From contig OX485808.1 in the NCBI GenBank assembly GCA_950295325.1, forward strand, positions 26,060,527 through 26,124,526: DNA of 64,000 nt, given 5' to 3'. Of this stretch, positions 14,935 through 50,928 are shown one piece after another. How positions within the stretch are numbered: position 1 is the stretch's first letter; every line of letters begins with the position of its first letter. The notes beneath the pieces were generated by a model. That model saw only the letters and a list, made by a program, of their open reading frames with translations, was not told the DNA's origin and did not search any database. A program made the translations under genes and the position numbers. Source of the stretch: Polytrichum commune. Lineage: Eukaryota > Streptophyta > Polytrichopsida > Polytrichales > Polytrichaceae.

Positions 14935-15123
14935 ATGGCGATCCGCTTGCGGTTCATGGGCCTTGTCACGACTCTTGTGGTGGGCATCCTGGTGACGAAC
15001 CTTGTGAACGCTCTTGACCAAAACTTGTTGTACACATCTCTGCAATCTCCACCGTGCAGAACAACAGTGTGCAGTCAGAACCTGCAAGTCTCCCCAACCT
15101 CAACACCTTCACACCAAAAATAG
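14935..15123 (+). CDS. Short ORF with signal-peptide-like start, upstream of the metalloproteinase
   Basis: A 62-codon ATG frame starts with a basic-hydrophobic run (MAIRLRFMGLVTTLVVGILV) and an Ala-type cleavage region, then has two Cys. It ends 49 bases before the metalloproteinase ATG, in another phase. It could be an upstream ORF in the metalloproteinase leader, a small secreted peptide, or chance. No homologue is recognised. Confidence 0.25.
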   Translation: MAIRLRFMGLVTTLVVGILVTNLVNALDQNLLYTSLQSPPCRTTVCSQNLQVSPTSTPSHQK

Positions 15124-15172
15124 CTTCAAATTCAAGGACCGTCTGCACACCGTCGTCAAGAGGTCTGCCTCA

Positions 15173-16969
15173 ATGGGAAGACTAGGATCATTTCGTCCCA
15201 TGCCATTTTTCGGGGCCGCAATTTTGTGGACAACATTGTTGTTGTTGTTAGTGACAGAGGTGGAGGTGGTCTGTGGACAACAAGAGGGGCTGCCTCCTCC
15301 ATGCCCACTCTGCCTGCAGAAACCACCGAGAATTCCCGGGATCCCGCGCGAAAAACAACACAAGCACGAGAAGAAGAAGCCTCGCGAAGCACACGAAACG
15401 CCCAAGGCATTGACGGATTTGAGTCAGTATTTGCAGCAGTATGGGTACTTGGAGACACCACCATGGGGGAAAACCCCGGTCCTCAAGGAGATGGGCGAGG
15501 CGATCGGGCTCTTCCAACGGTGTTTCGGGCTTCCTGAGACAAAAAGCTTGGATGCCGTCACATACGAAAAGATTTCTCAACCTCGGTGCGGGCAGCCAGA
15601 TTATGTCGGCGCGCAACCAGATCGCTCCGTTGCGCGAAAATTCGCACCGTTTCTTCGTGCCAATATTGTTGGTCGTCCGGAGGAATTGTCCAGATCGACT
15701 GATAACTCAGGTTTTATGATACGTGTATTTATTCTCTTGTATCGTTATGGTTGTTTTTGTCTAATAAACCATTGTATTCTCTCAATGGGTCTGGTCTCGT
15801 TGCAAACAGCCCAAACAGATGAACTCAACAACATCTTATTTGACATGGTTGGCCTCCATGTCCACCAGGGCAGAGGATTCCAATAGAGGAATCATAATAA
15901 GGAAAGTCATTATGCGTGGTTTGTAGGAGGAGATAATTAGGGGTTCTATGAATCTTATCAAATACGAATAAGCCTTATCATACCTTATGAAGCCTTATTC
16001 TTTCTTTTGATATCCTTTGTATAACAACCTCATACAATTTTGTTTTGAGCTTATACCTAGTAAGTCGCCATGGCCTTATTTTGCCAGCGCCCACCTGCAT
16101 ATTGTACAGGAGTTGGCCCCCCAGGTGATGATGAAGATGATTCTGAGTGTTTGATTGACTCGAGTGCCGTCGTGGCGTCATTCAATGATCGGGATGGTCG
16201 AGATGCCACACCCGTGGCCGCGACACGGAAAAGGTGCGTCACTTCCCGAACCTCGGCGAGAAGAGATACGCCGGGGCGGTTGGCAATGATGAAGAAGGCG
16301 AAAGACTTTGCGTATTTCTTCGGGAAACCGCGGTGGCCAACGACTCGCTACAAGCTCACGTGGTCTCTCTCCCCGACAAACATCACCCGGAGGTTGTCGA
16401 GAGACAAGGTGCGCACGGCGTTCATTCAGGCGTTCGATGTGTGGGAGGAGATGGTGCCCGCGTTCGCGTTCGAGGAGACCGAGGACTATGAATCTGCGGA
16501 CGTGAAGATAAGTTTCTTGAGCGGCGACCATGGCGACTCGCAAAAATTCGACGGGGTGTTGGGCATCATCGCGCATGCGTTCTCACCCGAGGACGGGAGG
16601 GTCCACTTTGACGACGCCGAGTTTTGGTCTGTCGACGTCACCAAGGAGCGTCACGTGCCCCACGCATTGGACCTCGTCTCAGTCGCGATCCATGAGGTCG
16701 GCCACGTGATCGGGCTCGCCCACTCCCCGGTCAAGAAATCCGTGATGTTCCCGAGCCTCCCACCGCACCGCGAGAAGCGGAAGCTCTCGGCCGACGATGT
16801 GCAGGGCGCACGAGAGCTCTACGGGCTGCTACAAGAGCAAGGGCCGCTTGCTCCGGGCCCTCGAGCGGTCCTTACGCCGAGACCCGCAATTGGCCTTGGT
16901 AGCGTGAACGCCGCCAATGCCCACTTGAGCTATCTCGTGCTAACATTTATTATGGTCTTCATAGTCTGA
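15173..16969 (+). CDS. Plant matrix metalloproteinase (matrixin, M10A), two exons
   Basis: The gene encodes a zinc endopeptidase of the apoplast or outer plasma membrane. Exons 15173-15710 and 16110-16969 join in phase (TCA-G/GA; intron GTTTTA...TACAG) to give 465 residues. The N terminus has a signal peptide (hydrophobic core about 12-34). The pro-domain ends in the cysteine switch PRCGQPD (137-143), whose Cys normally caps the catalytic zinc. The catalytic domain starts near residue 250 (FFGKPRWPTTRYKLTWSL) and has a calcium/structural-zinc region (FSPEDGRVHFDDAEFW), the zinc site HEVGHVIGLAH (374-384) and a Met-turn SVMFP. The C-terminal hydrophobic tail (LSYLVLTFIMVFIV) after small residues suggests a GPI anchor. 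About 105 residues separate the cysteine switch from the catalytic core, more than usual for plant MMPs. The start chosen is the first ATG in frame, and all catalytic residues are present. Confidence 0.92.
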
Positions 16970-30249: not shown

Positions 30250-32640
30250 CCACATGTCCACACATGAACCCATGAAAAATTATGGATATTAAATTGTTCC
30301 TCATGATAATAGAATTGAGTTACAAACACATAAATAACTATAAATTCAAACTTTTTTTCTTGGCGTTTTTTGTGAACTATGGATGCATCTCACATTTCAA
30401 TGCGATCAAGGTCTCCACCTCGGAGTCCAGCCAATTGCATTTTGTGACATCAACCTCATCTTTTGATTTTCTCAATTTTGGATTTTAATGTATTTTTTTT
30501 GTGAGGGAGGAAAAACTATATGCACATTTATCATAAACCCTTATTATTTCTACCACCAGCTTCTCTCTTGTGGCGGTTTATGTTTAAATTAGGGTTTTCA
30601 AATGGTGACAAATTCTCCATTGTGTCCAATCGACTACACACAATTATTTTCAAGAGATGATTCTTGATGATCTAGAAGACATAAGGTGAGTAGAGACCAT
30701 ATTGAAATGTGTTCATAGTAATTACTCAAGATGTGCAGGATGAGAACTTAACCCACTTCGAAATCCCAATTGTTCACAGTTTCACTAAAGATTTCAATCA
30801 ATCAAGTGGTGATCTAATTTTAGTTAGGAAGGCTATATAGATTTATTTATTTATCTTTCCAAAATCTATTCAACTACCACACATGTACAAATTCAAAATA
30901 TACCATAGCATATACTTTGAAGCTTCAGATTTGTAGAGAGTGAAATCACTACAACACTCAAAGTTATGCCAATATGATCTAGTGTAAGTTGAAAATTACT
31001 TGAGTTGTGAAGAATGAGAGGGTAAGCCAACTTTCAAATTATGATCGCTCATGCAATTTAGGTGAATTGGCCCAAATTCGTCGCAATCATCAATCACTCC
31101 ACACAAATCACAATGCCCAAAAAAATTGTCAATATCATCCAAAAATTGGTATTGGAATTAGATCTAAGTTTTGAAGATGTATTCCTCAGCTCGAGTTGTG
31201 CAGAATGAAAAAAAAATAGACAACATTGCATAAAATGACTTCACATATACCAAGCAACTGTAGCGAACTAAAAAAACTCGGTGAGTTGCTTTTGCAAAAT
31301 GTTGAGGAGAAAAAAACATTGTTGGTATAAACCTAAACTCACAAGAATTCAAAGTACAAGAGATATACATAAGTTAGTTAATTTTCTCTCAATTTTCAGA
31401 GCTCGCGTGAATATCTTGTTCATATGCAAAACGAGGAAACTTGTGCTCACATAATGGTCATTGATAGTCAAAACATGAAAAATCCTATACCTATTTTTCT
31501 TTTGCTTCAAGGTTCATTACAATTGTGTTGGACTCCCACACAAAGATGTACATTTCACATGCAATTCTTGAGCACAAAGTTAGCAAACCCTACTTCTAAT
31601 GAAAACATCTAAAGCTCTCATACAATATAAAAACATTGTTGAAATTAAGATCATCAACTCATGCGACTCACCTCAAATGTACAATGTTGGAATAATTTCA
31701 CTCATGCACTATCACCTATTTGCCAAAACATGAGATTTCACAAGGAGAGAGGTGAGGAGAGGAAGCTAGAGGGGAGAGGAGTGGAAAGGAGAGGAGAAGA
31801 GAGAAATTCACCTTCTAAAGATTGACGGTAGAGATGAGCCCAATCCAATGGATGAGCCCAGTCCGGCCCATGTTGAGAGTTCGGGCTGAGGAAAAGCTCA
31901 TCCCAATTTTTTAAAGCCGGCTCGATGGTTTGGCGCCAAAATTGTGCCACCTGGAGCACCACATGGAACGAATGAGTGTTCAGACCATACCCTAATATAA
32001 AGCCCTTGGGATGGATTTGATGAAACCAAGTGATCCTATTGGCCCAAATTATGAGAGTTCAGGCTGGCCCTCAATCCGGCCCCAAGTATAAAGTGGCCCT
32101 TATTAATATGTGATAGCAACACATAGACCCTCAATCTACACCTTCTAATACAAAAACAAGCACACTTGGTCGCTAACCAACTTGGTTGCATCCAACGTCA
32201 CTTAGCGACCACTTGGTTGCATCCAATGCCCACTTTTCATTGAACACTATATTCGGTATTTGGAGACTTTTTGTTGATTATGAGACTATATAAGGATGCA
32301 CATTTCAAAATTGGACCGGTAATGACGACTAAAAATCCCATATGTATAATGGTATGCTACTATTATTATACATAAAGGCATGGAAGTGAACAAAAATGTG
32401 AGGCATACATGAAAATAGTTGCGTATGAAAGACAACTCGTTATGAATGGAAGGGAAGATGCGAAGAATGAATGGAAGTTGAATGAATTAATTGGGATTGA
32501 AATACAATTATAATGGAAATACTATCAATGTCTTGAGTAACTTGCAATAGCATAGAAAGTAAGCACTTAAATATGTTCTACACCTAAGCCCATTTAGGGA
32601 GTCCGTCCCACTAGTACGCTTCTAGTCACACTAGTCCGAC
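30250..32640. other. AT-rich intergenic, nothing firm
   Basis: No gene is supported. A purine-rich GAGAGGAG tract lies at 31741-31800. Near 31830-32090 there are repeated GGGCTG/TGAGCCCA-like words that could be MITE remains. Confidence 0.35.
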
Positions 32641-32643
32641 CCA

Positions 32644-35600
32644 CTATTTTTTTTTTGCGGCTAAGTCCTTTTTTTTGGCGGCCTCCATGGCTCTAAAAAT
32701 CTCAGGCCCACGACTGTATCCTTGTGTGTTGCCTGGACATGAATATGTGTCGTTCTTGCATGTTTCAGGACGCGCTCCCGAATTGTAAGAGGTGGTATTA
32801 TAAGTAGAATGCGAGGGTGTTTGCGAAAGGGAACGTCTTGCGCTTCTCCGGAGGGCCAGACAACGATCGGACTCGGAAGATGCGGCCCTGAGGGCGTGCC
32901 CATCCAAGGAGGACGTGGAGGAGGGCCGGGCACCAAGCGAGCGGGTAGCCACCTGCGAAACAACGTCATAGGAAGATAAGAATAGGAATGGAGTGGGGAA
33001 AATAATGAGGGCGGTTTGGGATGGGCGCTCGTAAAGAGAACGGCACGCAAACGGAAGACAAGGGAAGCAAAAGCGGGAAAGGGGTTTAGGGTTGAGGAGG
33101 GCACCTTGGCTTTGGGGACGTCCATGCGGGGAACGGTGGGAACGAGGGGGGCGTTGACGGGAGCATCCGGAGCCAATGGAACTATTGCACTGTTGGATGG
33201 CGGGGGGGAGTCGAGGCGTGGAGGGCCCACGATGGCGGAGGACGTTGCGGGGGGAGGAACGGAGTCGGCGGGGGAGGTGTGGCAACGGGGGCCTTCCATG
33301 CGGAGACGCCGGCTCGGCCCGCGACGAGCGACGCCGTCGTCCTTAGAGGGCGAGAGGTGCCCCAAACGAACGAGGGTCCGTTTCTCCTTGGAGAGGGGGG
33401 AGGGCGACGGGGCGTAGGCGCGGGCGACAAGTGCGGGGGGCGGGCTGTTGACGACGCCGTTGTCGTGATGTGGGCGGTCTATTAATTAGAATTTAGATAT
33501 TTTATTTGTTTTCGTTATTTTTAAGTTGATCTTAGTTAGGTAAAAACCGGTCTTAAGTTGAAGACCGGATGAATTGGTAGATGGATGTGGTAAGTAGGAT
33601 TGGATTTACCGGCGGGCCAATAGCTAACCACCTAGGAGTTCTAGAAGGTTTTTACTTTAAATTCCTATTGGCTTGCCGGATTAGCCTTTAGCCCCAAACG
33701 CCCTATTTCTAGCGGGATTAAGGTTCTAGAAACCTTTAACCCCATATCTTTCCTATTTCTAGTAGGATAAGGATTCTAGAAACCTTTAACCCCTAAGGTC
33801 ATCCATTAGCAAGCCACTTGGAGGGGTTCTAGAGGACCTTACCTCGATGGTTTCCTATTGGCCGAAGGGGGGCAAGGTGGAAGACTATTTAAGGGGTGTT
33901 AGAAGAGTGTTTAGCGGGACCATTAGTATTTTGGAGTTGTTACTTGTGTTGGATTGAGGGAGCTTAGAGCATCTTGAGAGGGATAAGTGCTTAGGAGACT
34001 CATCTACACAAGAGGGTGTGGAGGTGTGGCATTTAGAGTGACTAGATTGTACTAGGTGCACTACTTGTAGTGTTTTATTGGTTATGAACTTGAGCAGAAC
34101 TTTATAGTGAGAGATTTGTCAATTATGGATGATCAGAGTGTTTAATGGATATGAAAATTTGAGGGATTGTTTATTATGAGTTATGGAAGTTGTGGTAAAA
34201 ATTTGAGAGCTTCAGTCATTGGCATGAAAAAGTTATTAAGAGTTGAAGGGAAGGGTGTCTAGGAACAAAGCCAACTAAACTAGCAAGGTTTGAAAATATG
34301 TATCTTTTAGAGGGTTATAGATATGGATACCAAAATTTGACACCACCTTTTGAACTTACACATCTATCTTGTGTTAAAATCTGAGATTTTTTGGACATAA
34401 GAGTAGGAAGTTATTAAGGTTTTAGAGACCGGGTGTTTTATCACAGCATTCATGCTAGGTAGTTAGAGTTAGAATATAATGCATAACTTTTGCATATGAG
34501 CTCTGATTGTGCTCAAATTTGGTGGGAATGTTTTTGATAAGATACTTAATAAGTGTACCAAATTTCACTTGAAGAAGATGATTTGGTTTTGAGTTATACT
34601 ATTCTGAAGTTTAGAGGGACCACATTGAGAGAGATTTACATCAAGAGTATAGGAGAAGGAAAACTACTATATTTTTTTCTAAACACTACCATAAAATAGA
34701 AGCCCGGCGCTTACCGGATAGTGCACATTTTCCTTGACACCGTCGTCGATGCCGACGTCGCGGGAGTAATCCACGGCCGAGGCCACGCCGACCGCCGAGA
34801 ACTGGTAGAGGGATGGCATTTGGAAGTCCGTGACGTTGCGGGAAGGGGAGGCAGGTGGCGAGAGGGGACGGGAAGGGCCGTCGACCACAGGGGCGTCGCA
34901 TATGGGGGCAGACTATGGTCAACAACAATCACAACAACAAAAGACATCCAAAAACGAAGCAAACATTAGTAAATGTGAACCACTTGATACAAAGCAAAGA
35001 CATGGAGGCATTTCAAATCAATTTATTGAGTTTGGCGAGCCTCATGATGCTCTTGAATACATTATCACGGGGGCTTAAACCCACATTGCCTATGGGGTTG
35101 GACCTAACAAAAAATGGTATGCTACCGGCGTGGACAACAAGCCTTCTAAGGTAAGGCGCTAGCGTATCGACCAAAAACGTGTCGTTCCTATCGCCGGTCC
35201 AAGTGGCGGGGAAGATGACGTTCCCCGGGGGGTTCAAGACGCTTTTGGTGGGGCTGTCATCAACGAGGACGGTGTTCTCGGGGGTCGGCCACCACCCGTG
35301 GGGTACCCCCTGCAACCGGGGGATGCCCCGCCACAGTCTTGACCTCAGGACCTTGAGGAATTGTTGTCCTCCGCCACGACCGCCGAACTTTGGAACCGGC
35401 AGACCCTTTTCGTCGAGCAATTCATCGCAATCCTCTTGGCCGAGGATGAGGCAAGGGCTCGGAAGATCGCGGAAGAGGAAGTCGACGATTGGCTCGGTGT
35501 TCTCCATGACCATGGAGCTCCACACAATGACGTGAGCTACATCGAGCACCTCTCGAAGGAAGTCACGCAGGCCGGGACGGGCGCGGACAGCCTTGCGGTT

Positions 35601-35780
35601 AATGAGAGTGTCGAGCTCTCCGTCGTAGTCCCTTTCGTCGGGGTGACGGAAGGGACGCGTGGGGACCCGGGGGATGTGTTCGGTGTGACACAACACCCCG
35701 TTCAGGTCGAACACGACGAACGGTTTGTTTCGGGTAAGACGTCCACTGGTCGAGGGTTTCCGACCTATCTCCGGGGGATC
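32644..35780 (-). CDS. FCP1/NIF-family (HAD) phosphatase-like protein
   Basis: Exons seen: core up to 35780 (after TAATCACAG, starting DPPEIGRKPSTSG), 34715-34912, 33105-33478 and 32644-32952. The FCP1-homology core has motif I PFVVFDLNGVLCHT, then ARPGLRDFLREV, VIVWSSMVMENTEPIVDFLF, and the D-D motif NTVLVDDSPTKSVLNPPGN. HAD phosphatases of this family dephosphorylate Ser/Thr, classically of the RNA polymerase II tail. Here the second Asp of motif I is Asn, as in many plant relatives, so activity is uncertain. Exon 34715-34912 (VTDFQMPSLYQFSAVG) has a perfect GTAAGC donor. The 33105 and 32644 exons encode a Pro/Ser/Arg-rich tail ending AAKKK. The splice from the core to 34912, the link 34715 to 33478 (phase mismatch, perhaps a missed exon) and the first exon are unresolved. 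Confidence 0.75.
33540..33870. repeat. Short tandem repeats in an FCP1-like gene intron
   Basis: A unit of about 60 bp, CCTATTTCTAGYRGGATWAGG followed by TTCTAGAAACCTTTAACCCC, occurs twice at about 33700-33800, with weaker copies on each side. AAACCGGTCTTAAGTTGAAGACCGG just before contains an imperfect inverted repeat. Non-coding. Confidence 0.55.
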
Positions 35781-36195
35781 CTGTGATTAACAACTCGACT
35801 AGTTTAATTCTATGATCCAATAAACAACATTGCATTGAGGAAAAGACGATTATGCGAGGAAAATAGTGCAAGGAGAATGTGGTCAAGTGCAGACTTGCGA
35901 ACGAGCGTTCGTGAATGAAGGCTGGGGTGGCGCATCATTTACGAACGCTCGTTCGTGAGCGCGGATAGAAGCACATGTACGAACGCTCGTTCATGAAGGA
36001 GGGTGAAAGTGGGCGTGAAAGTGTAATGATGCGCATGAACATACATAATACAAGATGCGATACGATACAATAAGTTTGGGAGATGCGACGCAGAGATCAT
36101 CTGCTCATATATTAATTCGATGAATATTTACAATTGTCTCACGTGATAATTTTTCACAGTTTCCTATGGCAAATACATGCCGTGTTCTACAAAAT
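35781..36195. other. Spacer with three palindromes between two minus-strand genes
   Basis: Three copies of the ACGAACG-NN-CGTTCGT palindrome start at 35897, 35941 and 35979, just 3' of the ParB-like gene. This is the left limit of the palindrome cluster. The first exon of the FCP1-like gene may lie here but was not recognised. Confidence 0.5.
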
Positions 36196-39100
36196 TTATC
36201 GGGCTAAGGGTCCACGTAGAGAAGGGTCCTCGCACGCCTCGTGATGCTGATGGACAGGAACCGCCAAGAACACAACGCGCATGGGTTAGTGGTTACGAAC
36301 GCGCGTTCGTTAAATGAGTGGTATTCTCAGAGGAGAGTTACCTCGTCATCGGGGGGAGGGGCAGCGGCGCTGGACCGAGCAGTTCCCTCCTCTTCGATTA
36401 ACGAACGCGCGTTCGTAATCCCCATTGGGCCAGCCGCCTCTGTCTCCATGGCGTCTGTGGCACGCTCCGACTGTGACGCCTGGGTCTGCACAATGTGATC
36501 CGCGTCGTCGTCGTCGTCGTTGTCATCTCCGCCCAGGTCGAGAGTGTCCATGCAGACATCCTCCATCTCCGCGGATGGATGTCGTTCCAGGTCAGGGCTC
36601 TCAACGTCCATTCCTTGGACAGCTGCCGCGTCATTGGGGCTCCCCTGCGTTTCCTCCACAATGACCATGTCAGTGTGTTGCGCAGATTCATCGCCCTGCC
36701 TATGCACTACCCTCGGGACGACTGTCAAAGAGGCGGTGGCAGTGACTGAGGCCAGTCCTACCCTTGGAGGGGGAGGGGTTAGGACTGCCGGACCTGAAGA
36801 TTCACGAACGCGCGTTCGTAAATCTTCGTCCTCGCGTATGGCAGCCCTTATCGCATCGTCCGAGTTGAAGGGGGTGGCAGTCAATTGAAGGGGCGGAGGA
36901 CTCCCAGCTGGCGTTGGGTGTGGTGCTGGTGGGTGCGAAGGTCCTCCGGGGAACAGGCCTGGAGGGGGGGTATGGGAGGGGTATCCTCCGGGGAAGGGGT
37001 AAGGCTGTTGTGCTGGCGCCGAGAAGCTCTGCATATTTCTGAGCATCTCAAATATGGCGTCCGTCTTTGCTGCGGACTCCCGCAGCGCCTCCTGCATGCG
37101 GGCCATATTTCTTGCACTCTCCTCTGCCGCAGCCGCCATTTCCTCCATTTTTTGCTCTAGCTTGGCATTCAGCTCGGCAACCGTCAACGCCTCCTCCTTC
37201 ACACGCTTGTTCTTGTCGTAATCCACCCCCAGCTCCGCCATGATGTCCATGTCCCCTTCGTCCTCGTCGGACACCTCGATGATTGCTCCCTCCGGCAACT
37301 CCACGTATGGCGTCTTCTTCATCCTCCTCCTCGTGTTCCGGAAGTGGTCCAAGGATGGACGCGAGCGTTGGTTGAGGGTCTCCATCCTCGGAACCACGAC
37401 GGGCCTGGGAGACACTGATGTCGAACAACCGCCAGGTGTGCCGAAGGGTTCCGCACCCGACACTATAGCGGGGAGGACATCCTGGGTTGTCCCAGCCGAG
37501 GATCCTGTATAGCCCCCCGGTGTCCCTTGGGGGTCAGACGGGTGACCCGCTGGCGCCAACATCCGTAAAGGAGTGATGTTGAACGACTGCAAGATGGCGT
37601 CCACGTCCACGGAGGGGGCGGGCTCGTCCTCGTCTGTCTCCAAGCCCGGCATGCCTTCGTCAACGGGCATGCTGAAGTCCTCCCTGGGGACACACATGTC
37701 ATCGAGGTCCATTGTGGACGCTTTCACCCTGTGGACTTGGTATTCATCCTCGTCTTGGGCGTCAACGTAGTTATTGACGACCAACCCCAGCATCTGTACC
37801 AACGTTCCAAACATGTCAGCATATACGAACGTGCGTTCGTAAACATCAACATTGAGACAAGGCCAGATCAACGCAAAGGGAAAAAATGCCACAACTATTA
37901 TAACATTTGAATCAATGACAATTACGAACGAGCGTTCGTAAATCTAAGAATGACAGCTTACCATGGCCGCGTACATGAACTTGCTGCCTCCAAAGATGTT
38001 GTAGACAGACTCTCCACTGATTGCCAAACTCTGCAACACTGACACGTAGAACTCCAACCTGAGTTCCAACGCGGGGAAAACCGTGTACAGTGTCTCCTGC
38101 AACAGTTCCTTGGGAGGGGGTGAGGGATGCTATATATCTTCTTGAAAGTATTGTTTGCCTTCACAGGCGCTCTCCCATTTCTGAGAGCATTGTACGTTAA
38201 GAAGATCAACCTGACAGCTCCCACCTGCTTGTTGCCCCTGGCCTCGTTGATGGCCACGATCCCTTCCGTTTTTGCGGGCACGTAGGTGCTGTGGTAGATG
38301 TTGTATTCAAATTTGATGGTATTTTCGTACAGCTCAGTGACAATGGATAGCTTCTCCTGTTCCACTATCCAAAGCCATATGTGAGGCTCCCTCATTTCAG
38401 GCGATCTGTAGTCTTGAAACTTTGCCATGAAAGGGTTGTAGAAGGGAAAATCCTTTGCCCCTTGCCTCGCACCTCCTGGGATCCCCCTGAAATCAATCAG
38501 GGCAAATGGGCAACCCATGCGGTCCTCCCTCACCTCGGCCCTGCTGATGGTGCCGTCCCACTTAGAAAAAGTGGTCCTCTCCAGCCCGGTGGTTACCAAA
38601 CAAAACCTGGCCACTCCCTCGAATGTGGCCCTCCGCTTCCTCTCCAAAAACTTTATATACAACTCCACCTCCTGGGGATTTGTCTCTACTTTCTTGGTCC
38701 GCTTGTTCCCCTTCAGCTTCAAGACGGAGGCGTGTTCCTTAACTAGCTTACGCATGGAAGAGCCGTTGATGTTATACCCGACCTTGAACTCCTTCCATCC
38801 AGCCCAGTTGATGTCCCCGTCGGCCTGGAAGAGTTTGTACTCCGGGACTAGTGCGCCCAACTCCCTCATTGCGTTGGTCTTCAACTTGCGATGTTCGCAC
38901 CACTCCTTGATGGAGTACGTTCCGGGCCTGTGCTTTGGCCTCTTCAAAAAAATCTTCGGGTAGGGGATTGTTCTCCCGACGGTGTTCCCAAGAGCATGAA
39001 CTGCACATCTCTGCAATTCCGACTCCGTCAACCCCTGAAGCGGCCTAAAAAATTCCCTCAGCAGCGGAGGCGCTTCCCCAGTCTTCTCCTGATTATATTT

Positions 39101-40698
39101 TTCTTCAGTGTCGGGGTTGACGAGATCCCCCGCACTGTGAGCATCAAAAAATTGGGTCCACAAATCCCAGGTGTCTCTGTTGCAACAAATAAGCCGGAGC
39201 TCACCCTTCAGCTCGAGCACTGACTTCGTTGAAGTGGACTTCATGTCGATGGAAGAGAATTTGTCCACCATCGCATCGCAAAACGCCTGCATTAGAAAGG
39301 AATGTCATCGGTCAATCAAATACGAACGCACGTTCGTAAATAAAATGATCAGGAATGTTCTAAAGGAACCTGAGAATTACGAACGCTCGTTCGTAAACTT
39401 ACCTTCCATTGTGGAGACTGGTTTTTCGCATTCTCCCTCTTCTTTGGTGGGCACCCGTGTGCCACCCACACTTCTCTCGCAGCCACTATGTTTGCTGCCC
39501 ATGATGCCTTAAACGCTTTGATCTTATTCCCAGAATTTAAAAATGTCAAAATTTTCCGGAGTTTGTCCCAGTCGTCTGACCACACCATGAACGCCTTCCA
39601 GTAGCGCAGGTCCCCCTTCAGCTCATGCTGGAAGTTATCATCCTTGAGGATGATCTGCGATGCCTCCAGGCTGTGCTGTCCATCAATAATCCAGAACTCC
39701 CCATTCTGGATTCTTGCCCAATCTTTCTCCGTGGGACGGGAAGTGAAACCCTTTGGCATAACGCACACAGTTTGCCTATCCCACTTCACGTTATTCATCA
39801 AGTTGTTGATTTGCCACTTCACACCTCCGCTTTCACGTGACCTCACCACCCACTTGTTGGGGGATTTCTCGCATTTGAAGCAGTCCACGTTGAAGGTGAA
39901 GTGCCGTCCCATGGGCCAACAATCCTTCGAGTAATTGTTGAAGTCGCGAAGGATACGAGTCGCCTTTGCCGCATCAGGGTTTTCCCCCTTCTTCAAAGGG
40001 GTCGGCATGACAGGCGGCGAGTTGACCTCAGCTGTCTCCGTGACACCAGACTTCTCCATATCGTCCCGAGTTCTTTTAGATGGCGTGGAGTGTCTGCTTG
40101 GCCCCTCTGACAATCTGCTAGCTGAAGGCACTGGCCGCGGCGCACTTCTAGAACCTCCTGCTCCGGATGCAGTAGGTTTTTTGGGACTCTTCTTCTTCTT
40201 CTTGGCCTCCACGACGGCACTGTTATACTTGGACATATTTAGGGCCAGTGCAGTCAACTTCCTGGCTGTCCAATGCTGGCTGAGGCTGTACTTCGTGAAA
40301 AGGTTCACGAGGTCGAAATGCTTGGCATCCTCTACAACATTATTCTGTGCGTATGTATGGGAGAAAGGGTGCCTCCTGAAGTCCAGCAGGAGGTTGATGT
40401 GGTCTTTTTTGTTTTTCAAATCCAAGATAACAAAATCACCCTGTGCCTCTATGGATTCTATCTCCCATGTCTTCATCTGCACCCACTGCTCCGGCTGGTC
40501 TGGCCTTGTCTCCAACTCGTATGTGAATCTCAGGGCGAACAATCCACCCTCGATTTTCTCCGGGAGCGCCGTCCACTCCCCCATGAAGTCATCTTTGGGG
40601 ACGTAATTATCGTTCCCATTGTCATCTGTCACTGACTCCGGAAGCCGATCCAACTGAACCGCGAACATTTCGATTGCGCTCCTGACTGGTCTAGCCAT
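36196..40698 (-). CDS. Large protein with a ParB/sulfiredoxin-like DGQHS motif, four exons, one frameshift
   Basis: Exons 40698-39403 (432 codons), 39286-37962, 37793-36342 (484 codons) and 36246-36196 (16 codons plus TAA) join at phase-0 GT/AG sites (AAG/GTAAGT, ATG/GTAAGC, GAG/GTAACT). The product is about 1,370 residues. Exon 1: basic linker (VVEAKKKKKSPKKPT), then ARIQNGEFWIIDGQHSLEA, resembling the G-x-x-x-x-I-D-G-x-H-R core of ParB/Srx and DGQHR folds, then WAANIVAAREVWVAHG. Exon 2: unknown fold. Exon 3: coiled coil (AKLEQKMEEMAAAAEESARN), Pro-rich stretch and an acidic tail (GGDDNDDDDDADH). Exon 2 has 1325 bases, one short of a codon multiple. The frame breaks near 38125 in a C-rich run, and the right frame resumes as PPPKELLQETLYTVFPALEL. 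It may be recently dead or have a sequencing error. All three introns hold palindromes. Homologue unknown; a mobile-element protein is suspected. Confidence 0.7.
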
Positions 40699-41158
40699 CT
40701 GCAATGTAACAGACACATTCAGAATTGCATTTACGAACGCGCGTTCGTTACTGGCATTTGCAGGTCGTCAATAAATTATTTATTATTGGCAAGACATCTG
40801 TTGGTTCTTGTTTACGAACGTTCGTTCGCAAATTTGGTTTGATTTCCAAGGTGTTATTCATTTTCAATAAATACGAACGCGCGGTCGTATTTGAGTGCTG
40901 TGATGTTCATATGGCGTAATAAAAAGGTGTAGGGTTCGTTTTTATTTTCATTTTTTGGGCTCATTTTTATTAGTTTTTGGGTACACATATTTGTGTCCAT
41001 GCCTTTGTGTAGATTTACGAACGCGCGTTCGCAAATCTTGGGTGTGTTTGGATCCCTGGTTACGAACGATCGTTCGTAAATCTAGGATATTGATGTGATT
41101 CAGTGTTTGTTCACGAACGGACGTTCGCAAATACAAGATGTTCCTTATTTAATCAATT

Positions 41159-41384
41159 ACGAACGCACGTTCGTAAAAGTAGAAGGTGAGCGCGTATTTT
41201 ACGAACGCACGTTCGGAAAATTAGAAGGTGAGTGGGTATTTTACGAACGCACGTTCGTAAAGGTGGAAAGTGAGTGGGTATTTTACGAACGCACGTTCGT
41301 AAAGGTAGAAGATGAGTGGGTATTTTACGAACGCACGTTCGTAAAAGTAGAAGGTGAGTGCGTATTTTACGAACGTGCGTTCGT
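41159..41384. repeat. 42-bp tandem array, six units, one palindrome each
   Basis: Palindromes start at 41159, 41201, 41243, 41285, 41327 and 41369, exactly 42 bp apart. They are separated by a near-constant spacer (AAAGTAGAAGGTGAGTGGG then TATTTT). That equals four helical turns of 10.5 bp, placing every site on the same face of the DNA. It lies upstream of the ParB-like gene. Confidence 0.95.
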
Positions 41385-41449
41385 AAAAGTAAAGGGCTTG
41401 GTGTATTAGATGTATAAACGCCACATTTACGAACGATCGTTCGTAAATG

Positions 41450-41935
41450 TGGTCGTCTGTGTATGATAATAAATGCTTTCCGTACATATACGTATACGTA
41501 TGTATGGGTTTATGAATGTTGCTATCGACATTGCTTGGATTTCTGCCTACAACTCTTGATCAGAATGATGAAACACAAAGTGAAATATGTAATGACAACA
41601 ACATTGAGATTCAGTGATTAAGAATTCATAATGAAGGGGAAAGTCCTAATTCATACAAAACATGACAAAGCTCATAATGCATAAAACATGACACATGGAA
41701 TTCAACAAAAAACAATTTCAGATTGCAAAGAAGTGTTTTGAAAAGGAAACCTGTACTCACATTGAATTGTTGCAAACCCAAAACCTGCTGCCTGCTACTC
41801 AAAAATCCAGAAACCTCACAAATGCACTGATTTCGTTTTCAAATGCAATTTCTACCCTCGCTCCTTTCTCACACTCTCAAGCCTTCAGAATTTATTTACA
41901 AATCCTACAAATATTCTGATGTAAACACAACTCAC
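41450..41935. other. No gene; edge of the palindrome-free gap
   Basis: From here to 44.8 kb no palindrome occurs. A self-complementary ATATACGTATACGTAT stretch lies at 41485-41501. No coding frame is convincing. Confidence 0.4.
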
Positions 41936-42125
41936 AAGCTTTCTGAAACTCTCAAGCTCTCAAGCTTTTTGCAACACTCAACCTCTCAAGCTTTCTAAAA
42001 CACTCAACCTCTCAAGCTTTCTAAAACTCTAAACCTCTCAAGCTTTCCAAAACTCTAAACCTCTCAAGCTTTCCAAAACTCTCAACCTTCTCAAGATTTC
42101 TACAAATATCAACCTCTCAAGCGAT
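41936..42125. repeat. CT-rich minisatellite, unit about 26 bp
   Basis: ACTCTAAACCTCTCAAGCTT with TTCYAAA recurs about seven times, with variants at the edges (CAACCTCTCAAGC). A pyrimidine-rich strand bias is evident. Non-coding. Confidence 0.8.
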
Positions 42126-42324
42126 CCTACTCTCAAGCTTCTGACAATGCGCGCCAAGAATAAACATAAAATGCGGCTATACAAATGGCCAGGGCTTCGC
42201 CGCACCTAAGCTCTCCCCTCCTCCTCTGCTCCAAATGACAAATGAGGAGGAGAGGAAGAGGCGCGGGGAGGTAGCCGGCACCGCTAGGTTTCCTGGCGGC
42301 TGCCACGTGGCTGACAGCCACTGG

Positions 42325-42395
42325 CCAGGGCTGGGATGGGGGAGGGGATGGGGATGCGGATGGGGATGGGGATAGGGAGGGATGAGGGTTTACGA
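42325..42395 (+). repeat. G-rich GGGGATG repeat, G-quadruplex candidate
   Basis: A run of GGGGATG/GGGGAGG hexa-heptamers gives more than four closely spaced G3-G4 tracts on the plus strand, enough for an intramolecular quadruplex. It is followed by GAGGGTTTACG. Confidence 0.6.
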
Positions 42396-42832
42396 ATTAA
42401 GAAATACGAAATGGTGGGAGCTTAGTTCGGGGACATGAATTTTACATTCCGTATCCCCTGAATACCTCTACAGTTGGATTCCTTGTAAACATATTTTAGA
42501 AAAGTATGTTCAGTTAATTTGTACAACACAATGCATGTCATTTAGTAGGTTTTCGATGAAGAATCCACCCCAATGTGTGTTTGGTGTTTTGCAAAATAGA
42601 GTTTTCATGAACCACACATCCTTAAAGTTGTTCAATGGTTCCTCAAACAAATTTTACATACATAAAGGACGCATTTTGAATTGTGGAGAGGGGCTATCAG
42701 ATTCTCCTCAAGAGGTGGGGGAAAATTCATTTTTCAATACGATGTCATTAATTTCATGAGGTGTTAGCTTGACCCACCCTTAATATGATATTTAGTATTA
42801 GATACTCTAAATACGAATGCATAGTACACTAA

Positions 42833-43359
42833 GGGCCTGTTTAGACTTGGGGCCAAGGCCATTGTGAACGAAGGCCAATATGTCCCATGTGGCATGCAAA
42901 TGGGCCCCAAAGGCCATTAATAAGAAAGTAACCTAACTCCATTCATTGCTTTCATGTGTAAACCTATTTAGGTGGGGTTGGGGCCATTTGGAGGTTGCAA
43001 TTATGAGAGGGTTATGAGAGGTTCCAACGTACTCATGAACTATTCTATGGATAATAATTAAAGTATAATAAATTTAGAATTTCTCCCCTCCTACTCAATG
43101 CTCAAAGAATAAACTACTATAAGCGAATAAAAGCTCTAACAATGGCCTCAACAAGAGGGAAAGAGTCCACAATGTTGGGAGCTCTCTTTTCCAAGGCTTG
43201 AGGCCATTGTCATGATGAATAAAATAATTTATTTGTGATTGGCCCCAACTCATGGTGTAAACTTGAAGAGGAAAATCCTAGCCTTTCTACCAATGAGAGG
43301 CGTGGATTTCTTTCACCCCAACCCATTTTTGAGCCTTGACTCCAAGTCTAAACCCGTCC
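42833..43359. mobile_element. PIF/Harbinger-type MITE with TAA duplication
   Basis: TIRs begin GGGCCTGTTTAGACTTGG on the left. The right end, reverse complemented, reads GGACGGGTTTAGACTTGG. A TAA duplication flanks it (42830-42832 and 43360-43362). Length is 527 bp with no coding. The flanks match a repeat at 5.29-5.35 kb that lacks the insertion and so serves as an empty site. Confidence 0.8.
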
Positions 43360-43429
43360 TAAGTATCACTAACGATCTAAACCCTAAGCCCGCAAACCAC
43401 ATATTAGACAACTTTCACAAACCATATAC

Positions 43430-43476
43430 ACTAACCCCAAACCCCAAACCCCAAACCCTAAACCCTAACCCTACAT
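43430..43476. repeat. Short interstitial telomere-like repeat
   Basis: CCCCAAA units grade into CCCTAAACCCTAACCCTA, the plant-type telomere heptamer, over about 45 bp. Three CCCCAAA variants come before two CCCTAAA units. Likely a relic or a chance AT-rich microsatellite. Confidence 0.7.
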
Positions 43477-43864
43477 CATTTTATCTTACCAACCCTTCTT
43501 AGGAGGTCAAGTCATTTAATTAGTTGTCGACTTGAACTAACAAACGAATACTAGTGCCATCAACTTTAAATTTCACCAATGATCAATTGCATTTAAACTT
43601 GTAGTTCATAATATGGTCCGATGTTTGGCGAGCCTCAAGTGTAGGGGGTGGATTCAAATGAAAAATCCACCCGCAAGCATGTGTATATGGTGTTTTAAAA
43701 TATAAATTTTTCATGGACAATATGTCTTTCAAGGTGTTCAATGGTTCCTTAAAAAAAAATTATTGGATAAAGGACTCAATTTCATATTGTGGCGAGCCTG
43801 CGCTATCCTAAACCTTTACAAAAGGTGGAGGAAATTCTATTTCTCATAGGACGTCAAACACATG

Positions 43865-44800
43865 ATATTAATAATTGTAAGTGTGACTTCACGTAGGCAT
43901 GGTTTCAATTCTTATCATTATCGTATGCACCGTTCCAAAGTGATTGATCATTTCCAATCATGCCATTTTAATTCATTATTTTCAAACCTAGTGTTACATT
44001 TGAATGAAGACCTTACCTACATATATTGGGTATGATTACTTCAAAATGTCCTCAATTTACCTAGTACAAACCATTATGGATTAAGCGACTTTTTATTGGT
44101 ATTCATGCAGTTGGTGACCATATTACGGGCATTTTTTTTATGTGAATCATATGATACCTACAATTTTAGGGGCTTCCACAACATGTTTTTAGCTACTCTT
44201 ACCTCATTGTGTGTGTGAATATGTATTACCCTAAACCCTTCATCACTTTATTAGGTATAATCAATCGTCAATTAACTTAGACTTCACACATTAGTTGCAA
44301 ATCATTTAAATTCAATGTTAACCATAAACCTATATAGACATTATAAATCTAATATTATATATATGTGTATATATAATATAATATATACATATGAAATTCA
44401 TATATACATATAAATATAGACATATATTCACATGAGACCTTGGTGACAACTAAGGTGTGCGACCGATTGACATATTTACAATATGTTGCGTGCATGCAAG
44501 ACATGTTCCATACATAATGCTATTTATTTATTCCACATGGATGGAATGGCATATTGTTAGGTCAAAGTAGGCGGCGGGAATCCGCTTTTTAAATAGCATC
44601 CAAGGGATTTTGAACCATCAGGGGGGAGGTACTTAAAGCTCTTCCCCCCACATCAGAGCTCTTTTCTGCGGCACAACCAAGTGTGCGCTCCACAGACCTG
44701 ACTGGAATGAGCACAAACCATTTTCTTGTGCGCCCACCCTATACCTCCCAGGTACACAATAGGTTGCACATACCCGCATATACCGCCGCAAATACCGGAA
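43865..44800. other. AT-rich DNA without a gene
   Basis: Includes an (AT)-rich stretch at 44345-44425. No coding frame is supported. A GGGGGGAGG/CTTCCCCCC inverted pair at about 44620-44650 is a small hairpin. Confidence 0.35.
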
Positions 44801-44904
44801 GTTTACAAACGCACGTTCGTAAAGATGACTTGGTAGCGACATGTGATGCGAGTGGTTTAGACATGTAGTTTAGACGAGTGGTATAGACGAGTGGTTCAGA
44901 CATG

Positions 44905-45835
44905 TGATGCGAGTGGTTTACGAACGTGCGTTCGTAAGTAGAGCATTAGACATACTCAGCGTAGATTTACTTACAGCTAGTCATAGGCACAAAATGTTCA
45001 ATTATATACGAACGTGCGTTCGTATATATTTCCTTCCAGATACAGGCGCACGTAAGTTGTTGTGATGCGAGTGGTTTACGAACGTGCGTTCGTAAGTAGA
45101 GCATTAGACATACTCAGCGTAGATTTACTTACAGGTAGTCACAGGCACAAAATGTTCAATTATATACGAACGTGCGTTCGTATATATTTCCTTCCAGATA
45201 CAGGCGCACGTAAGTTGTTGTGATGCGAGTGGTTTACGAACGTGCATTCGTAAGTAGAGCATTAGACATACTCAGCGTAGATTTACTTACAGGTAGTCAC
45301 AGGCACAAAATGTTCAATTATATACGAACGTGCGTTCGTATATATTTCCTTCCAGATACAGGCGCACGTAAGTTGTTATGATGCGAGTGGTTTACGAACG
45401 TGCGTTCGTAAGTAGAGCATTGGACATACTCAGCGTAGATTTACTTACAGGTAGTCATAGGCATGAAAATGTTCAATTATATACGAACGTGCGTTCGTAT
45501 ATATTTCCTTCCAGATACAGGCGCACGTAAGTTGTTGTGATGCGAGTGGTTTACGAACGTGCGTTCGTAAGTAGAGCATTGGACATACTCAGCGTAGATT
45601 TACTTACAGGTAGTCATAGGCATGAAAATGTTCAATTATATACGAACGTGCGTTCGTATATATTTCCTTCCAGATACAGGCGCACGTAAGTTGTTGTGAT
45701 GCGAGTGGTTTACGAACGTGCGTTCGTAAGTAGAGCATTCGATAATACTCCACGTTGACCTACTTATAGGTAGTCGTGGGCGCTAAAATGTTCAATGATA
45801 TACGAACGTGCGTTCGTTTATTTTCCTCCTAACCC
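44905..45835. repeat. 158-bp satellite array, about 5.6 units, two palindromes per unit
   Basis: The unit runs GATGCGAGTGGTTT, palindrome, AAGTAGAGCATTAGACATAC, GATTTACTTACAGGTAGTC, AAAATGTTCAATTATAT, palindrome, ATATTTCCTTCCAGATACAG and GCGCACGTAAGTTGTTG. Equivalent palindromes start at 44920, 45078, 45236, 45394, 45553 and 45712 (158-159 bp apart), with second ones at 45008, 45166, 45324, 45483, 45642 and 45802. Units are nearly identical, so the expansion is recent. It lies about 0.8 kb upstream of the DUF7869 gene. Confidence 0.95.
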
Positions 45836-46638
45836 TCAAAGACACCTACGCTCCCGTGACTCTGTTATGTCCAACTGAACATATGATGGTCTGGTATTCA
45901 CGAACGTGCGTTCATATATATCAATTGATATTATTTTGCAATTATACAGAAACATCCGTTCATTTATGCACATGCCTCCTACTACTACGCTATAGATGTT
46001 TCTTCTGATGGGTCAACATTTTTACAAACACGGTTAGGGCTAGAACACATGATTGATCGTTCGTATGCATACGCCCATATGTTTCGGCCAGGACTTACGA
46101 ACGATCGTTCGTATACATACACCCTTGAGTTTAGGCTCTACCTTGGGTTCGGTCGTTCCTAGATACACACCCGTCAAAGACATGCCCTTCAATTACGATG
46201 CTTGTTGCATGTGGATAATGATGCAGGTGCATTTTAGGTGCTCCTGAGCAATGCACGTTGCTTATCCCTTTTACAATTCATTGTTTGTTGGGTTGATGTT
46301 CTCGTCCGCGCGTTCGTGAATATATGTGCTTATGCTCTCCTTTGTTGGTTGGCAACACTTCCCATGTTTTATTAGCAAATCGACCCAAAACCCTTCACGG
46401 TTAATATGTACCACAATTGCATGCCGTTGTCCATTGGTGTGTGACTCCCACGTAGTATTTGCTTGTCATGGCGTTGTTTTCGAACGCACGTTCGTCTTCA
46501 TATGTGAGGTCCCCCAACGGTGCCGCGAGAGTTGTTTGTGTTTTTTTAGCCATATATCTACACAGCTCTCGTTTTCGCTTTTGTGTGCATTGCGGTGCTT
46601 CTTGTTTTGGTCATTGATTAGTGGTTTGCTTAGGTTGG

Positions 46639-49600
46639 ATGGCGCTGCCCGTGGCATATAGTTCATTGGAGTTGTCCATAATTTCTTCCTCCTTCGATGG
46701 TGAGTGTGAACTTTCTTCCCCTTCGGCGGGTTGTAATGGTCTGCCAAACATGATGGGGGAGTTTGTGGATACATCCTCCCATGAATCTTTAGAAGTGCAC
46801 GAACAATCTCTACATTCCAGGGATGACCACGATGACATTCCGTTATGTGCCGGTTTCGGGAGGGAGCAATGGGTTGGCCTTGATGTCGTCTTACTCAACG
46901 ACATTGGTGTCCCTGTGGCAGATGGCATATGTAGAAACTCTGATCCCCGTGATTGTGTGGATGCCAACCCCCTTGGTCCGAACGATGTTGGTGTGTGCAT
47001 CTTGAATTCATTGCTTCCGCTTGAGGTCCCGGTGACATGGAGATTTTCCTTGCGTCGATGGCCTTTTTGTCGGGTTCTCCATGACGGAGTGAGCTTGTTG
47101 GACCATGAGCGGCGCCATAAGCAAACACAATTAGCTTTGTTGGCCAAAATACGTCCTCGCAAAGGCCTACGCAAATATGATTCGAACCGTGTGCCTCGAG
47201 GAGATAAGGAGCGTCGACGGGATCGCATATTGGGAGACGAATCTATCCGTCTTGTGTCCGCCAAACACTGTTGCTATCGGAAATGTTGCCAGTTTTTCCC
47301 ACGGGAGAAAATTAAGTCCCTACGTCAAGAGATGTGGCTGGCCGATTTCCGTATGAGATCGGCAAAGAAACTCGAGGTCCATAGAAATGTGCACATTGAC
47401 ACCCATGGGCATAAGGTGGTCACACTTAAGAATGTGGATGTGTGTTGTACCGCGTGGTATACCATCCATGCCGTGTCAAAGGCTGACTTTTATAGGTTTC
47501 AAAAGTATTCATCTTTGGGTCGCCGCTCACGATTTCATGGAAATTCGGGCACAAAGAAACCTCGGGAGGCTACACTCCAAGCCTCCGCAACACTCTCCAC
47601 CATCATAGTCCCATTGGCCGATGCAATGCCCCACAAGACGAGGACATTGTCGTTAGGGGAGAAAGTTGTACAAATGGTGTTGCCCACAGGTACAAAATGG
47701 AAGAACATATTAACGGACATTAACGAAGTGGGTCGCATAGCGGGATGTGGTCCCATTTCTTTGTCCAAGTTGAGTGTAATTAAAAACCAACAGTTTGCTG
47801 AATACATTTTGAAGAGACCTGGGGACAAGTTCGCTAGGTGTACGACGTGTGAAAAATACAAAGGTCTTCGAGACGCCCACCCCATAGGCACTGAATCCCA
47901 CTCCAGACACCAAGCAAAATATATTGAACATGTCAACAACCAAGAGGCTCACCGTCAAGATTACTACAAGAACCGTGCTCTATCCATAATGAGGCCTACA
48001 GAGGTTCTAACAATCATCCATGACAAAATGGACCACGCCAAGACCGCATGCCCTTGTTATGCACGGAAAATAAAGGCCACGGATGGACTCTTCAAGTTGC
48101 CCGTAGCTGTCACAGGTTTGTAGGAAATCACAAATATGTGTTCAAATTCTATCCAATTTTACTAGATGTGTTTGCGTTAGGTTTCAACTTCACACATCCG
48201 TTTAGGGTTGTTGTTGTTATTGTTGTCATTCATGGATCGTTTGTTTTTTCCCAGGGATGATTGCCCACGGACATGGAGACGTTAAGTATGCCCATTATGG
48301 TCTGGATTTTTACCCTGGCGATGCTAACCACACGGTGGGATCATTTGCAAAACTCTTGCGCGATCTTGAGAAGCCACCGGTACATTCATCACGTGCATTG
48401 TTTGATGGTTGTGGAACGACACCCCTTTACGAAGCACTGCTTGCGGGGAAGGAGGTTTGTATGTCGTCATTGCCGGAGCCACCTGGAGAACCTCTTTGTG
48501 CGAAACCTTTGCCTCCAACTCTCCACGTTCAACTTGATAATTGTGCGAAGGACAACAAATGTCGATATGTATTTTGTTTTTGGTCCTTGCTTGTGGCGAA
48601 AGGAATCTTCAAAGAGGTGTTTGTGTCTTTCTTGATGGTGGGACACACACACGATGACATTGATGCGTCTTTCGGACGGTGGAGCATGAAGTTGCATGAA
48701 GAAGATTTTCCAACCATACCACTTCTTATGAAATCGTATATGGATTTGGACCATATGCCGGTAATTCCGCACATGATTGAGGAAGTACCAGATTTCAAGG
48801 CCTTCATCAAGCCATACATGTTGAAGGGAGGGGACCGTTTGGTGGGACATACCAAAGCACAACAATTCCGATTCTTTATAAGGGATGATGGTCTCCCGGC
48901 CATGCAATTTAAGCTTTTGTGCACATCTCCTAATTGGGGCCCGGATGATGGTATACTCGTATGGCGTCAAGACAATGATGGGAAATGTTTGCTCCCGGAT
49001 GGGGATCCAAAGCCTTGCAAACCCGACCCCATGAGGAATGGGCCGGAAATCATCAAAGGCATATCCGGATTCATTGAATATTGGAAAGAGTTGTGTGAGG
49101 AGGACATCACTAGACGTGTTAGAGATACTCATGAACCTTTGATTGCGTATTGGGATCGCATTCGCTCGGCCCTAATGACACTTGGTGGCGACACCCGTAC
49201 AACTTTAACACAAGGATTTTGGCCACAAAGCCGTTTAACGGTTGTCGAGTCCGACACCATGTTTTTTAGCAATGGAGACGTTCGTGAAGAGTTCGCAATG
49301 GACGAGCATTACGTTGGCCCTGCCCGAGATCGACCGGCACCGTCGTTTCGTGTAGGTGTTGATTGCCATGAAGGTTATTTGGTCCTCGTACGAGCAGGGG
49401 ATGAGGAGCATCCCAAGCCAATTTGGTTGGTGAAAGCATTGTCTTCATCCAATTTTGTTCGAACTAGCCCCAACTTTCGTCAAATTGAGGTGGAATATTG
49501 TCGTCCAAGCACTAAAGACCAAAACATGCTACGCACTTATTTAGGTTGGGACACCAAAAAGAATTTTAAGTGGACAGTGGACTCAGCGTACACACCGGTT

Positions 49601-49774
49601 TGGATAAATACGGATACTATACTTTGTGCTTGGAAGCCGCGCAAAGGTTCCAAAACAGAAACAATGACCATCCCCCAAAAACATATAGATTTTGCCAAAG
49701 ACAACTTGGCACGTATTGCAGCTGCGGTGAATGACGCCGAGAATGGATATGAAGCGGAAGATGGAGATGTGTAA
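46639..49774 (+). CDS. DUF7869-type, DDE-like transposase, two exons, intact
   Basis: Exon 46639-48115 and exon 48255-49774 join in phase (ACA-G/GG ATG; intron GTTTGT...TTTTTTCCCAG, 139 bp), giving just under 1,000 residues. The N-terminal part has Cys clusters (KHCCYRKCCQFFP, CTTCEKYK, TACPCYARK), probably zinc-binding. The core has IIHDKMDHAKT (first acidic site), HYGLDFYPGDANHTVG, VQLDNCAKDNK (second) and FLMVGHTHDDIDASFGRWSM (third), the pattern of the plant and animal DUF7869 family, which I read as an RNase H-like DDE/D transposase. No stop or frameshift is present. The start is the first ATG (46639); the frame is open slightly further upstream. The palindrome arrays end 150 bp upstream, so the protein, or the divergent ParB-like one, may bind them. 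The DUF label is from memory; motif agreement is strong. Confidence 0.8.
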
Positions 49775-50928
49775 ACATAACATATTAGGTGGGAGTTAAT
49801 GGCGAAAAACATGGGCGCTTAGTAGACTTGGTTTTTATTAGACTTAGTGGACTTGTCACACTCCATTGTTGTATACGTTTGGGATGTGCCATCCAAATTC
49901 ATAAGAGCCTTACTTATGGGATGCGCACCCCAAATTCTATAATGACATAAACCAATTGTTTTTTCAGAGTTGATTGTTATTTTCCACAAAGAGCTCACGT
50001 TTTCATTTTAATTGAAATTATCTATTTTTAGTAATAAGAATATGCTTTACGTGCGAAATTTCAAATCGCCATGTTCTTGATGTTCCCAATATTCCGTATG
50101 CCCACAATATTGGCATCCCAAACCATGGGCATATTTTATTTTGAGACTTTCAAAAGTCTCCGATTAACGAATATAGTGTTATTGGATTTGGACTAAACTT
50201 GAGCCTTGTGGAATTTGTCAAAGTCATATTGTGTCCCAAAATTCTATTGGATTTGGACTAAACCTCATGATACACTCGGAAATGTGTCAGGTTGGAAAGC
50301 TACACTCATATGTACTTGGAAAACTATGAAAATTTGCAAGCATTTAGTTTGTTTTATGTTTCAGATACCCATTATATTATTGGGATTGGTAATTATATTT
50401 TTTGAAGTTACTTAAAACAAGTTATGTAAGATTGGATGTGCACTCCGCGTTTGGTGCAAACATAAAATAAACAAATAAAAATAAAAATTCAAGCCTCAAA
50501 GATTCTCATTTTAGTTGGAAATCTTATGCAAAAAGTTTCATCCCAATTGGGTCTCTACCCATCATTCATTTGATGATGTCAGTAGGGTTAAAGTTTGTTT
50601 TCAATCATCTGCGCCACCCATTATACCTTCACATATGTACTCCTTTCTTATTCACATTGCCACATGGACGATTGATAATGTTTTTGATAGCTCGTATAAA
50701 GTCCGATATCATATTCGTACGGTTGGATGCTCAAAAACAACTACAAATTCAATCCTAAATTATCAGTCTTAGAAACAATGATTTTTTGACCAATTTTGAG
50801 GAGAATGGTGCTTAGGTATTTAGGAGTTAAGGCCCTACTTATGAGATGTTTTGCATGCAAGGGTAAGTAGTTACCGACCCTAGTTAAAAGCCTATATGGC
50901 ATGAGTTGAGTATGGCGACATTATCTAA
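49775..50928. other. 3' flank, no gene
   Basis: No gene. Small hairpins occur, such as TATGCCCA...TGGGCATA (about 50097-50135) and GAGACTTTCAAAAGTCTC (about 50143-50162). These could be transposon ends, but no inverted partner was found near 32.6 or 35.9 kb. Confidence 0.35.

Follow-up and report, generated by a model that had tools for sequence, protein, structure and literature searches.

The 64,000-nucleotide (64-kb) stretch of Polytrichum commune contig OX485808.1 analysed here, referred to as the window, contains a copy of a very abundant, plant-type DNA transposon. Two divergent genes lie within the transposon: gene A on the minus strand, which encodes a DGQHS motif, and gene B on the plus strand, a probable transposase gene. 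In and around gene A and upstream of gene B are many copies of a palindrome, TACGAACG-NN-CGTTCGTA. The coordinates of the features are listed in Table 1.

Allowing at most three mismatches to the 16 fixed bases, 39 copies of the palindrome are found between 35896 and 46496 and none elsewhere in the window, while shuffled versions of the window contain 0.07 copies on average and 1 at most. The 14-base core has 28 exact copies in the window and none in the shuffles. The original prediction had placed about 39 copies at 35897–46495 and noticed none outside; its coordinates were right to within one base. In the genome, which was scanned over 408 Mb in 64 contigs (seven of them 42–78 Mb long), the exact palindrome occurs 4,680 times with a 2-bp spacer, once with a 1-bp spacer and never with a 3-bp spacer. 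The pattern read backwards, used as a control, has no exact site genome-wide. A telomere-like repeat of the plant type was also noted. In the palindrome, the two central bases vary (TG, CT, AT, CG, CA, AA and others). Fixed arms, a free centre and a rigid spacer are the pattern that a DNA-binding dimer would impose, and we infer that the palindrome is bound by a protein dimer.

The palindromes go with the transposon. The first 100 exact sites in the genome-wide list, which come only from the first 2.5 Mb of one chromosome, were compared with the gene, end and flank matches, and 96 of them were inside copies of the window transposon. Sites scattered over the genome away from the two genes, which would have spoken against the original prediction, were thus not what this sample held. 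The remaining four sites, at C1:2286452-2289051 and C1:2485597, have no scored element gene nearby and may be fragments.

According to the gene model of the window, eight palindromes lie in introns 1–3 of gene A, two in the coding sequence of its exon 3 (at 36400 and 36803) and 29 between the divergent genes, many of them in two tandem arrays with 42-bp and 158-bp units. This agrees with the earlier description of copies in introns, two coding places, intergenic DNA and two arrays. However, the sites at 35896-36294 belong to the intron before an FCP1/NIF-like exon and not to plain intergenic DNA, and the cluster, although real, covers only the middle of an element that extends from 32243 to 50180. 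At either end of the element, ~3.7 kb separate the terminus from the nearest palindrome (35896 against 32243 and 46496 against 50180).

Within this transposon family, family 1, several sites hold their positions across subfamilies. These are found at -51 to -48 from the ATG of gene A, in intron 1, both immediately behind the splice donor and further on, and in intron 2. All subfamilies have the site at about -51; by contrast, the array upstream of gene A differs in length between copies. Between subfamilies, four-fold degenerate sites of gene A exon 1 differ by up to 0.64 and 86–88% of the amino acids are kept, which indicates that neutral sequence is near saturation and that the protein is strongly constrained. 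When intron 1 was compared among four copies that represent diverged subfamilies, all 32 arm positions were invariant, but only 14 of the 78 other positions (p 4.5e-17).

The genome also contains two related DUF7869 families, each with a different palindrome. Family 2 was read at L074 and L076 (C5:938200-949900) and family 3 at L075 and L077, which are two different copies. The family 2 palindrome, TTTGGGTCG-NN-CGACCCAAA, has 9,731 sites genome-wide and its reversed control none; the family 3 palindrome, CCACGGGTG-NN-CACCCGTGG, has 819 sites genome-wide. The family 2 loci contain 34 exact sites of their own type and the family 3 loci 10, and neither set contains any site of the window type. 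The window holds no site of the family 2 or family 3 palindromes, and the family 1 loci together hold 277 exact sites of their own type against a single, stray family 2 site.

The three site classes are found at matching places. Family 2 resembles family 1 in having own-type sites upstream of gene A (at -48 from the ATG, with one mismatch), behind the intron-1 donor and within intron 2. In family 3 the own type occupies the matching introns, namely intron 2 and the one that precedes the NIF exon. Intron 2 contains three own-type palindromes in family 2 and one in family 3. This swap of the site class at all matching places together with the family is the strongest evidence pointing to a reader protein encoded by each family.

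The encoded proteins differ between the families as well. Gene B of family 1 and family 2 is 79% identical in exon 2 and 63% in exon 1, and exon 2 is 54% identical between families 1 and 3. For gene A, the proteins of families 1 and 2 align over 432 positions at 36% identity (E 6e-69), and DGQHS is kept. At least 150 gene A copies related to family 2 are present, many of them identical, and the family 2 copy that was read has one internal stop. In family 3, the last part of exon 2 is followed by an exon 3 of acidic character and by the NIF exon (PF03031, E 1.6e-8), the order seen in family 1. More distant DUF7869 copies (C2:52992202, C6:41940433, C7:2075344, C3:1632694 and C6:11663904) have the best scores against the Pfam model, and may be further families with other palindromes.

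Table 1. Features of the transposon copy in the window.
Feature	Coordinates	Strand	Description
Whole transposon copy	32243..50180	.	17,938 bp, flanked by the 4-bp duplication ATTG
Left terminal inverted repeat	32243..32271	+	29 bp, starts AACACTATATTCG
Gene A exon 4 (putative)	35013..35780	-	FCP1/NIF-like domain, PF03031 E 2.6e-16, above cut-off
Four palindromes, gene A intron 3	35896..36311	.	Intron before the FCP1/NIF-like exon
Gene A exon 3	36342..37793	-	Acidic, proline-rich, phase 0; two palindromes in coding sequence
Two palindromes, gene A intron 2	37824..37940	.	From the site scan and gene model
Gene A exon 2	37962..39286	-	1,325 nt; ends FGGSKFMYAAM, followed by GTAAGC
Two palindromes, gene A intron 1	39321..39395	.	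First directly after the splice donor
Gene A exon 1	39403..40698	-	432 amino acids, contains FWIIDGQHS, phase 0
Thirteen palindromes upstream of gene A	40732..41445	.	Including the 42-bp-unit array 41157-41395
Sixteen palindromes upstream of gene B	44804..46496	.	Including the 158-bp-unit array 44903-45827, two sites per unit
Gene B exon 1	46651..48110	+	N-terminal part of the probable transposase; open frame; start codon and exon ends approximate
Gene B exon 2	48251..49774	+	DUF7869 domain, PF25273 E 7.6e-40
Right terminal inverted repeat	50152..50180	-	29 bp, 90% complementary to the left repeat

The element has both hallmarks of the ends of a DDE-type DNA transposon, terminal inverted repeats and a target duplication of fixed length. 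Its right boundary is the point where the similarity to ~30 other copies ends and the flanks diverge, and the left boundary was set by the matching inverted repeat and by end matches genome-wide. A 4-bp target duplication is found in 6 of the 11 copies with both flanks read, where besides ATTG in the window it reads AGGT, CAAC, ATAG, TCTA or TTAT. The copies are numerous, at least ~100 in the genome, and many are young; the copy counts given here come from genome scans and are lower bounds.

The left end was matched 358 and 374 times genome-wide at up to two mismatches, far above the number of gene A copies scored, and thus many internally deleted derivatives, or derivatives like miniature inverted-repeat transposable elements, probably exist. 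One locus (L044), in which the left part of the element (window 32243-33165) adjoins gene B at window position 47680, appears to be an internally deleted derivative. In the window copy, the region from the left end to the NIF exon (32243-35013) is ~1.3 kb longer than in other copies, which suggests a nested insertion. Elsewhere in the window, the open frames at 15008-16969 look like those of a regular host gene for a matrix metalloproteinase of plant type (HEVGHVIGLAHS).

Exon 1 of gene A has at least 97 matches in the genome, most of them without stops, and its ratio of nonsynonymous to synonymous substitution rates (dN/dS) is far below 1. Exon 2 is 1,326 nt long in most copies against 1,325 nt in the window, thus the window gene is frameshifted; many other copies in the genome are intact. 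The end of exon 2 with its splice donor is conserved in family 2 and recognisable in family 3. The FCP1/NIF-like exon very probably belongs to gene A as its exon 4, since all exons are in phase 0, no ATG precedes the domain, the splice signals fit, the frame is retained in at least 148 copies and the exon order is the same in family 3. The alternative that the NIF frame is a separate captured gene was rejected on the lack of a start codon before the domain, the phase-0 acceptor, the number of copies and the recurrence in family 3.

The PF03031 match in the last exon of families 1 and 3 relates this exon to the FCP1/SCP (NIF) phosphatases that act on the tail of RNA polymerase II. However, here the domain is encoded by a transposon and the catalytic DxDx(T/V) of these phosphatases is absent. 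The window has DLNGVL, aligned with DLDETL of a small phosphatase of the polymerase C-terminal domain (CTD), so that the second catalytic Asp is replaced by Asn, and family 3 has DVNGIL. As DLNG takes the place of a DLDE-type sequence, catalysis is doubtful, and the domain may bind without being fully catalytic.

In gene B, at least 85 genomic matches to the DUF7869 exon are found, most without stops, and exon 1 aligns with family 3 as one unbroken frame. IHDKMD, QxDNCAKDNK and GHTHxDxD are conserved in the alignment. These motifs and the nature of the element make gene B a probable transposase. DUF7869 is the only domain of gene B above the Pfam threshold, with no match to a transposase of the Mutator-like element (MULE) type. 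Among the main open frames of the element only DUF7869 and NIF exceed the Pfam thresholds, and there is no ParA-like partner. No relatives of gene B were found in viral contigs and no mention of DUF7869 in the literature searched, and the AlphaFold model of the family 3 transposase (mean predicted local distance difference test score, pLDDT, 38.0) was too poor for judging an RNase H-like transposase fold. Among subfamilies of family 1 (L001, L028 and L051, compared over window 46651-49774 and 39403-40698), four-fold differences are ~0.15 in gene B and ~0.64 in gene A exon 1. This points to separate histories for the two halves of the element, which may have arisen through recombination or gene conversion.

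We suggest, with a probability of about 0.55, that the palindromes are dimer sites of the element's own gene A protein, that site and protein co-evolve family by family, and that their role is most likely an anti-silencing one like that of VANC. In each family, a particular site would be paired with a particular version of the protein, and both would change together. The gene A protein, and not the transposase, would bind the palindromes as a dimer, and binding at many sites in promoters and introns would mark the copies of its own family. The bound protein would most likely shield these copies from silencing by DNA methylation and closed chromatin and keep them active, in the way that VANC acts on VANDAL. 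The FCP1/NIF-like exon may link the bound copies to the RNA polymerase II machinery. Judged from the sequences, gene A is a better candidate for the binder than gene B, because it diverges most between families (36% identity against 63–79% for gene B) and because its introns carry sites. The results support the claim of the original prediction, namely a mobile element of a eukaryote that would have a multi-site DNA-binding system of its own. Among the three roles it proposed, silencing control fits best, and a role as transposition sites is unlikely at this distance from the ends.

The closest parallel is the VANDAL transposons of Arabidopsis. In these, both VANC and VANB have VANC motifs in their introns, and further motifs precede the transposase gene. 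The motifs form tandem repeats and differ between related VANDAL families, and the transposase is much more conserved than VANC (Hosaka 2017, PMC5735166). Binding of VANC strips DNA methylation from its own VANDAL family only (PMC5735166; Sasaki 2023, PMC10398659). The likeness covers a DNA transposon with a better-conserved transposase and a faster-changing second protein, as well as short motifs, specific to a family and different between related ones, that are placed in introns and upstream regions and repeated in tandem. However, VANDAL motifs are 8–9 bp long and in one orientation, while those described here are 18–20-bp palindromes with a free 2-bp centre. VANC contains DUF1985/DUF287, neither of which was found in gene A by Pfam. 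The element further has a DUF7869 transposase and not that of a MULE, 29-bp inverted ends with a 4-bp duplication, and the FCP1/NIF-like exon. The window element is thus not a member of VANDAL but an unrelated transposon with an unrelated protein. A looser likeness exists to fungal DNA transposons encoding TET/JBP, where an extra gene is also thought to aid the escape from methylation-based silencing (Kojima 2025, PMC12730594). There, the extra protein is a dioxygenase; none was found here, and specificity apparently comes from the DNA sites.

Changes at CpG positions of the palindrome arms, as counted from related copies and therefore not as independent events, are C-to-T or G-to-A in 52 of 53 cases. 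This is the pattern of methylated-CpG decay, as expected if dead copies become methylated. The dependence among these copies weakens the case for anti-silencing, and several other points also weigh against it. For families 2 and 3 the comparison covers only one or two loci each, and for family 3 it covers gene A without exon 1. Gene A has no known domain in common with VANC in Pfam. That it diverges faster could be due to a looser constraint rather than to co-evolution with the site, and gene B, which also differs between families, could be the binder. Finally, plain transcriptional regulation by gene A would look alike in sequence.

This last alternative, in which the palindromes are ordinary operators and gene A is a transcription factor of the element that controls genes A and B, as activator or repressor, and takes no part in chromatin silencing, is possible, although we favour it less than anti-silencing. 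The clustering of sites upstream of both divergent genes and in the gene A introns is what it would predict, as is the retention of the site near the start of gene A in all subfamilies. However, an operator would not require 39 sites over 10 kb, their amplification in tandem or the complete replacement of the site from one family to another, and intron sites far downstream of the start are also kept. That the transposase, alone or with gene A as partner, binds the palindromes and unites the transposon ends, in the manner of CACTA subterminal repeats, is unlikely. It would account for the sites upstream of gene B and for the divergence of gene B, whose exon 2 is 79% and 54% identical to that of families 2 and 3, but the sites track the introns of gene A and not the ends of the element, from which even the nearest are ~3.7 kb away. 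Palindromes acting as RNA, i.e. as intron hairpins that steer splicing, are hardly credible: they adjoin the splice donors in introns 1 and 2, but most are in arrays between the genes, the 2-bp spacer is too short as a loop for the full palindrome, and spacing and arms are fixed inside and outside introns alike.

The original prediction had also linked gene A to ParB/Srx folds through its DGQHS motif, which we take to resemble the DGQHR-type motif of that superfamily. This link found no support. Twelve versions of gene A exon 1 have no credible Pfam family at E up to 10, and exon 1 of the window has no NCBIfam family at E up to 10, including the DGQHR-type. Exon 2 of the window has no Pfam family at E up to 1, and exon 3 has only a sub-threshold match to Creb_binding. 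Gene A has no credible sequence similarity to any PDB chain, and membership in the ParB or DndB families has no credible sequence match in Pfam, NCBIfam, PHROGs or PDB. The AlphaFold model of exon 1 was unusable (mean pLDDT 34.6). A parS-like system, in which the gene A protein would be loaded onto the palindrome as a clamp of the ParB/Srx fold and spread from there, so that copies are clustered or segregated, is therefore very improbable. An 18–20-bp palindrome with a 2-bp centre does have a parS-like geometry, and a palindromic site and a DGQH motif are shared with ParB-parS and with DndB/DGQHR-type proteins. However, the case is built on five residues, of which the last is Ser instead of Arg, the element is a eukaryotic transposon without a partition partner among its open frames, and a chromosomal transposon doesn't need a segregation system. 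A variant that we consider improbable, though less so, is a single protein that joins a ParB/Srx-like spreading clamp, loaded at the palindrome, to an FCP1-like domain binding the tail of RNA polymerase II. Such a protein would coat and activate only its own family, and its 18–20-bp address would change in concert at dozens of sites whenever a new family arises.

Sequence-specific anti-silencing by a transposon protein has already been shown for VANC in Arabidopsis (PMC5735166, PMC10398659). The system described here has long palindromes with rigid spacing, thousands of them per genome, and three families in one genome that use three addresses at matching introns. Such palindromes could supply long and specific DNA addresses for epigenome tools. 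The three-family arrangement also makes a long-standing question testable, namely how joint change comes about in a DNA-binding protein and its dozens of sites. If anti-silencing by gene A is confirmed, the same design in an unrelated transposon and with an unrelated protein would suggest that this escape from host silencing has evolved more than once.

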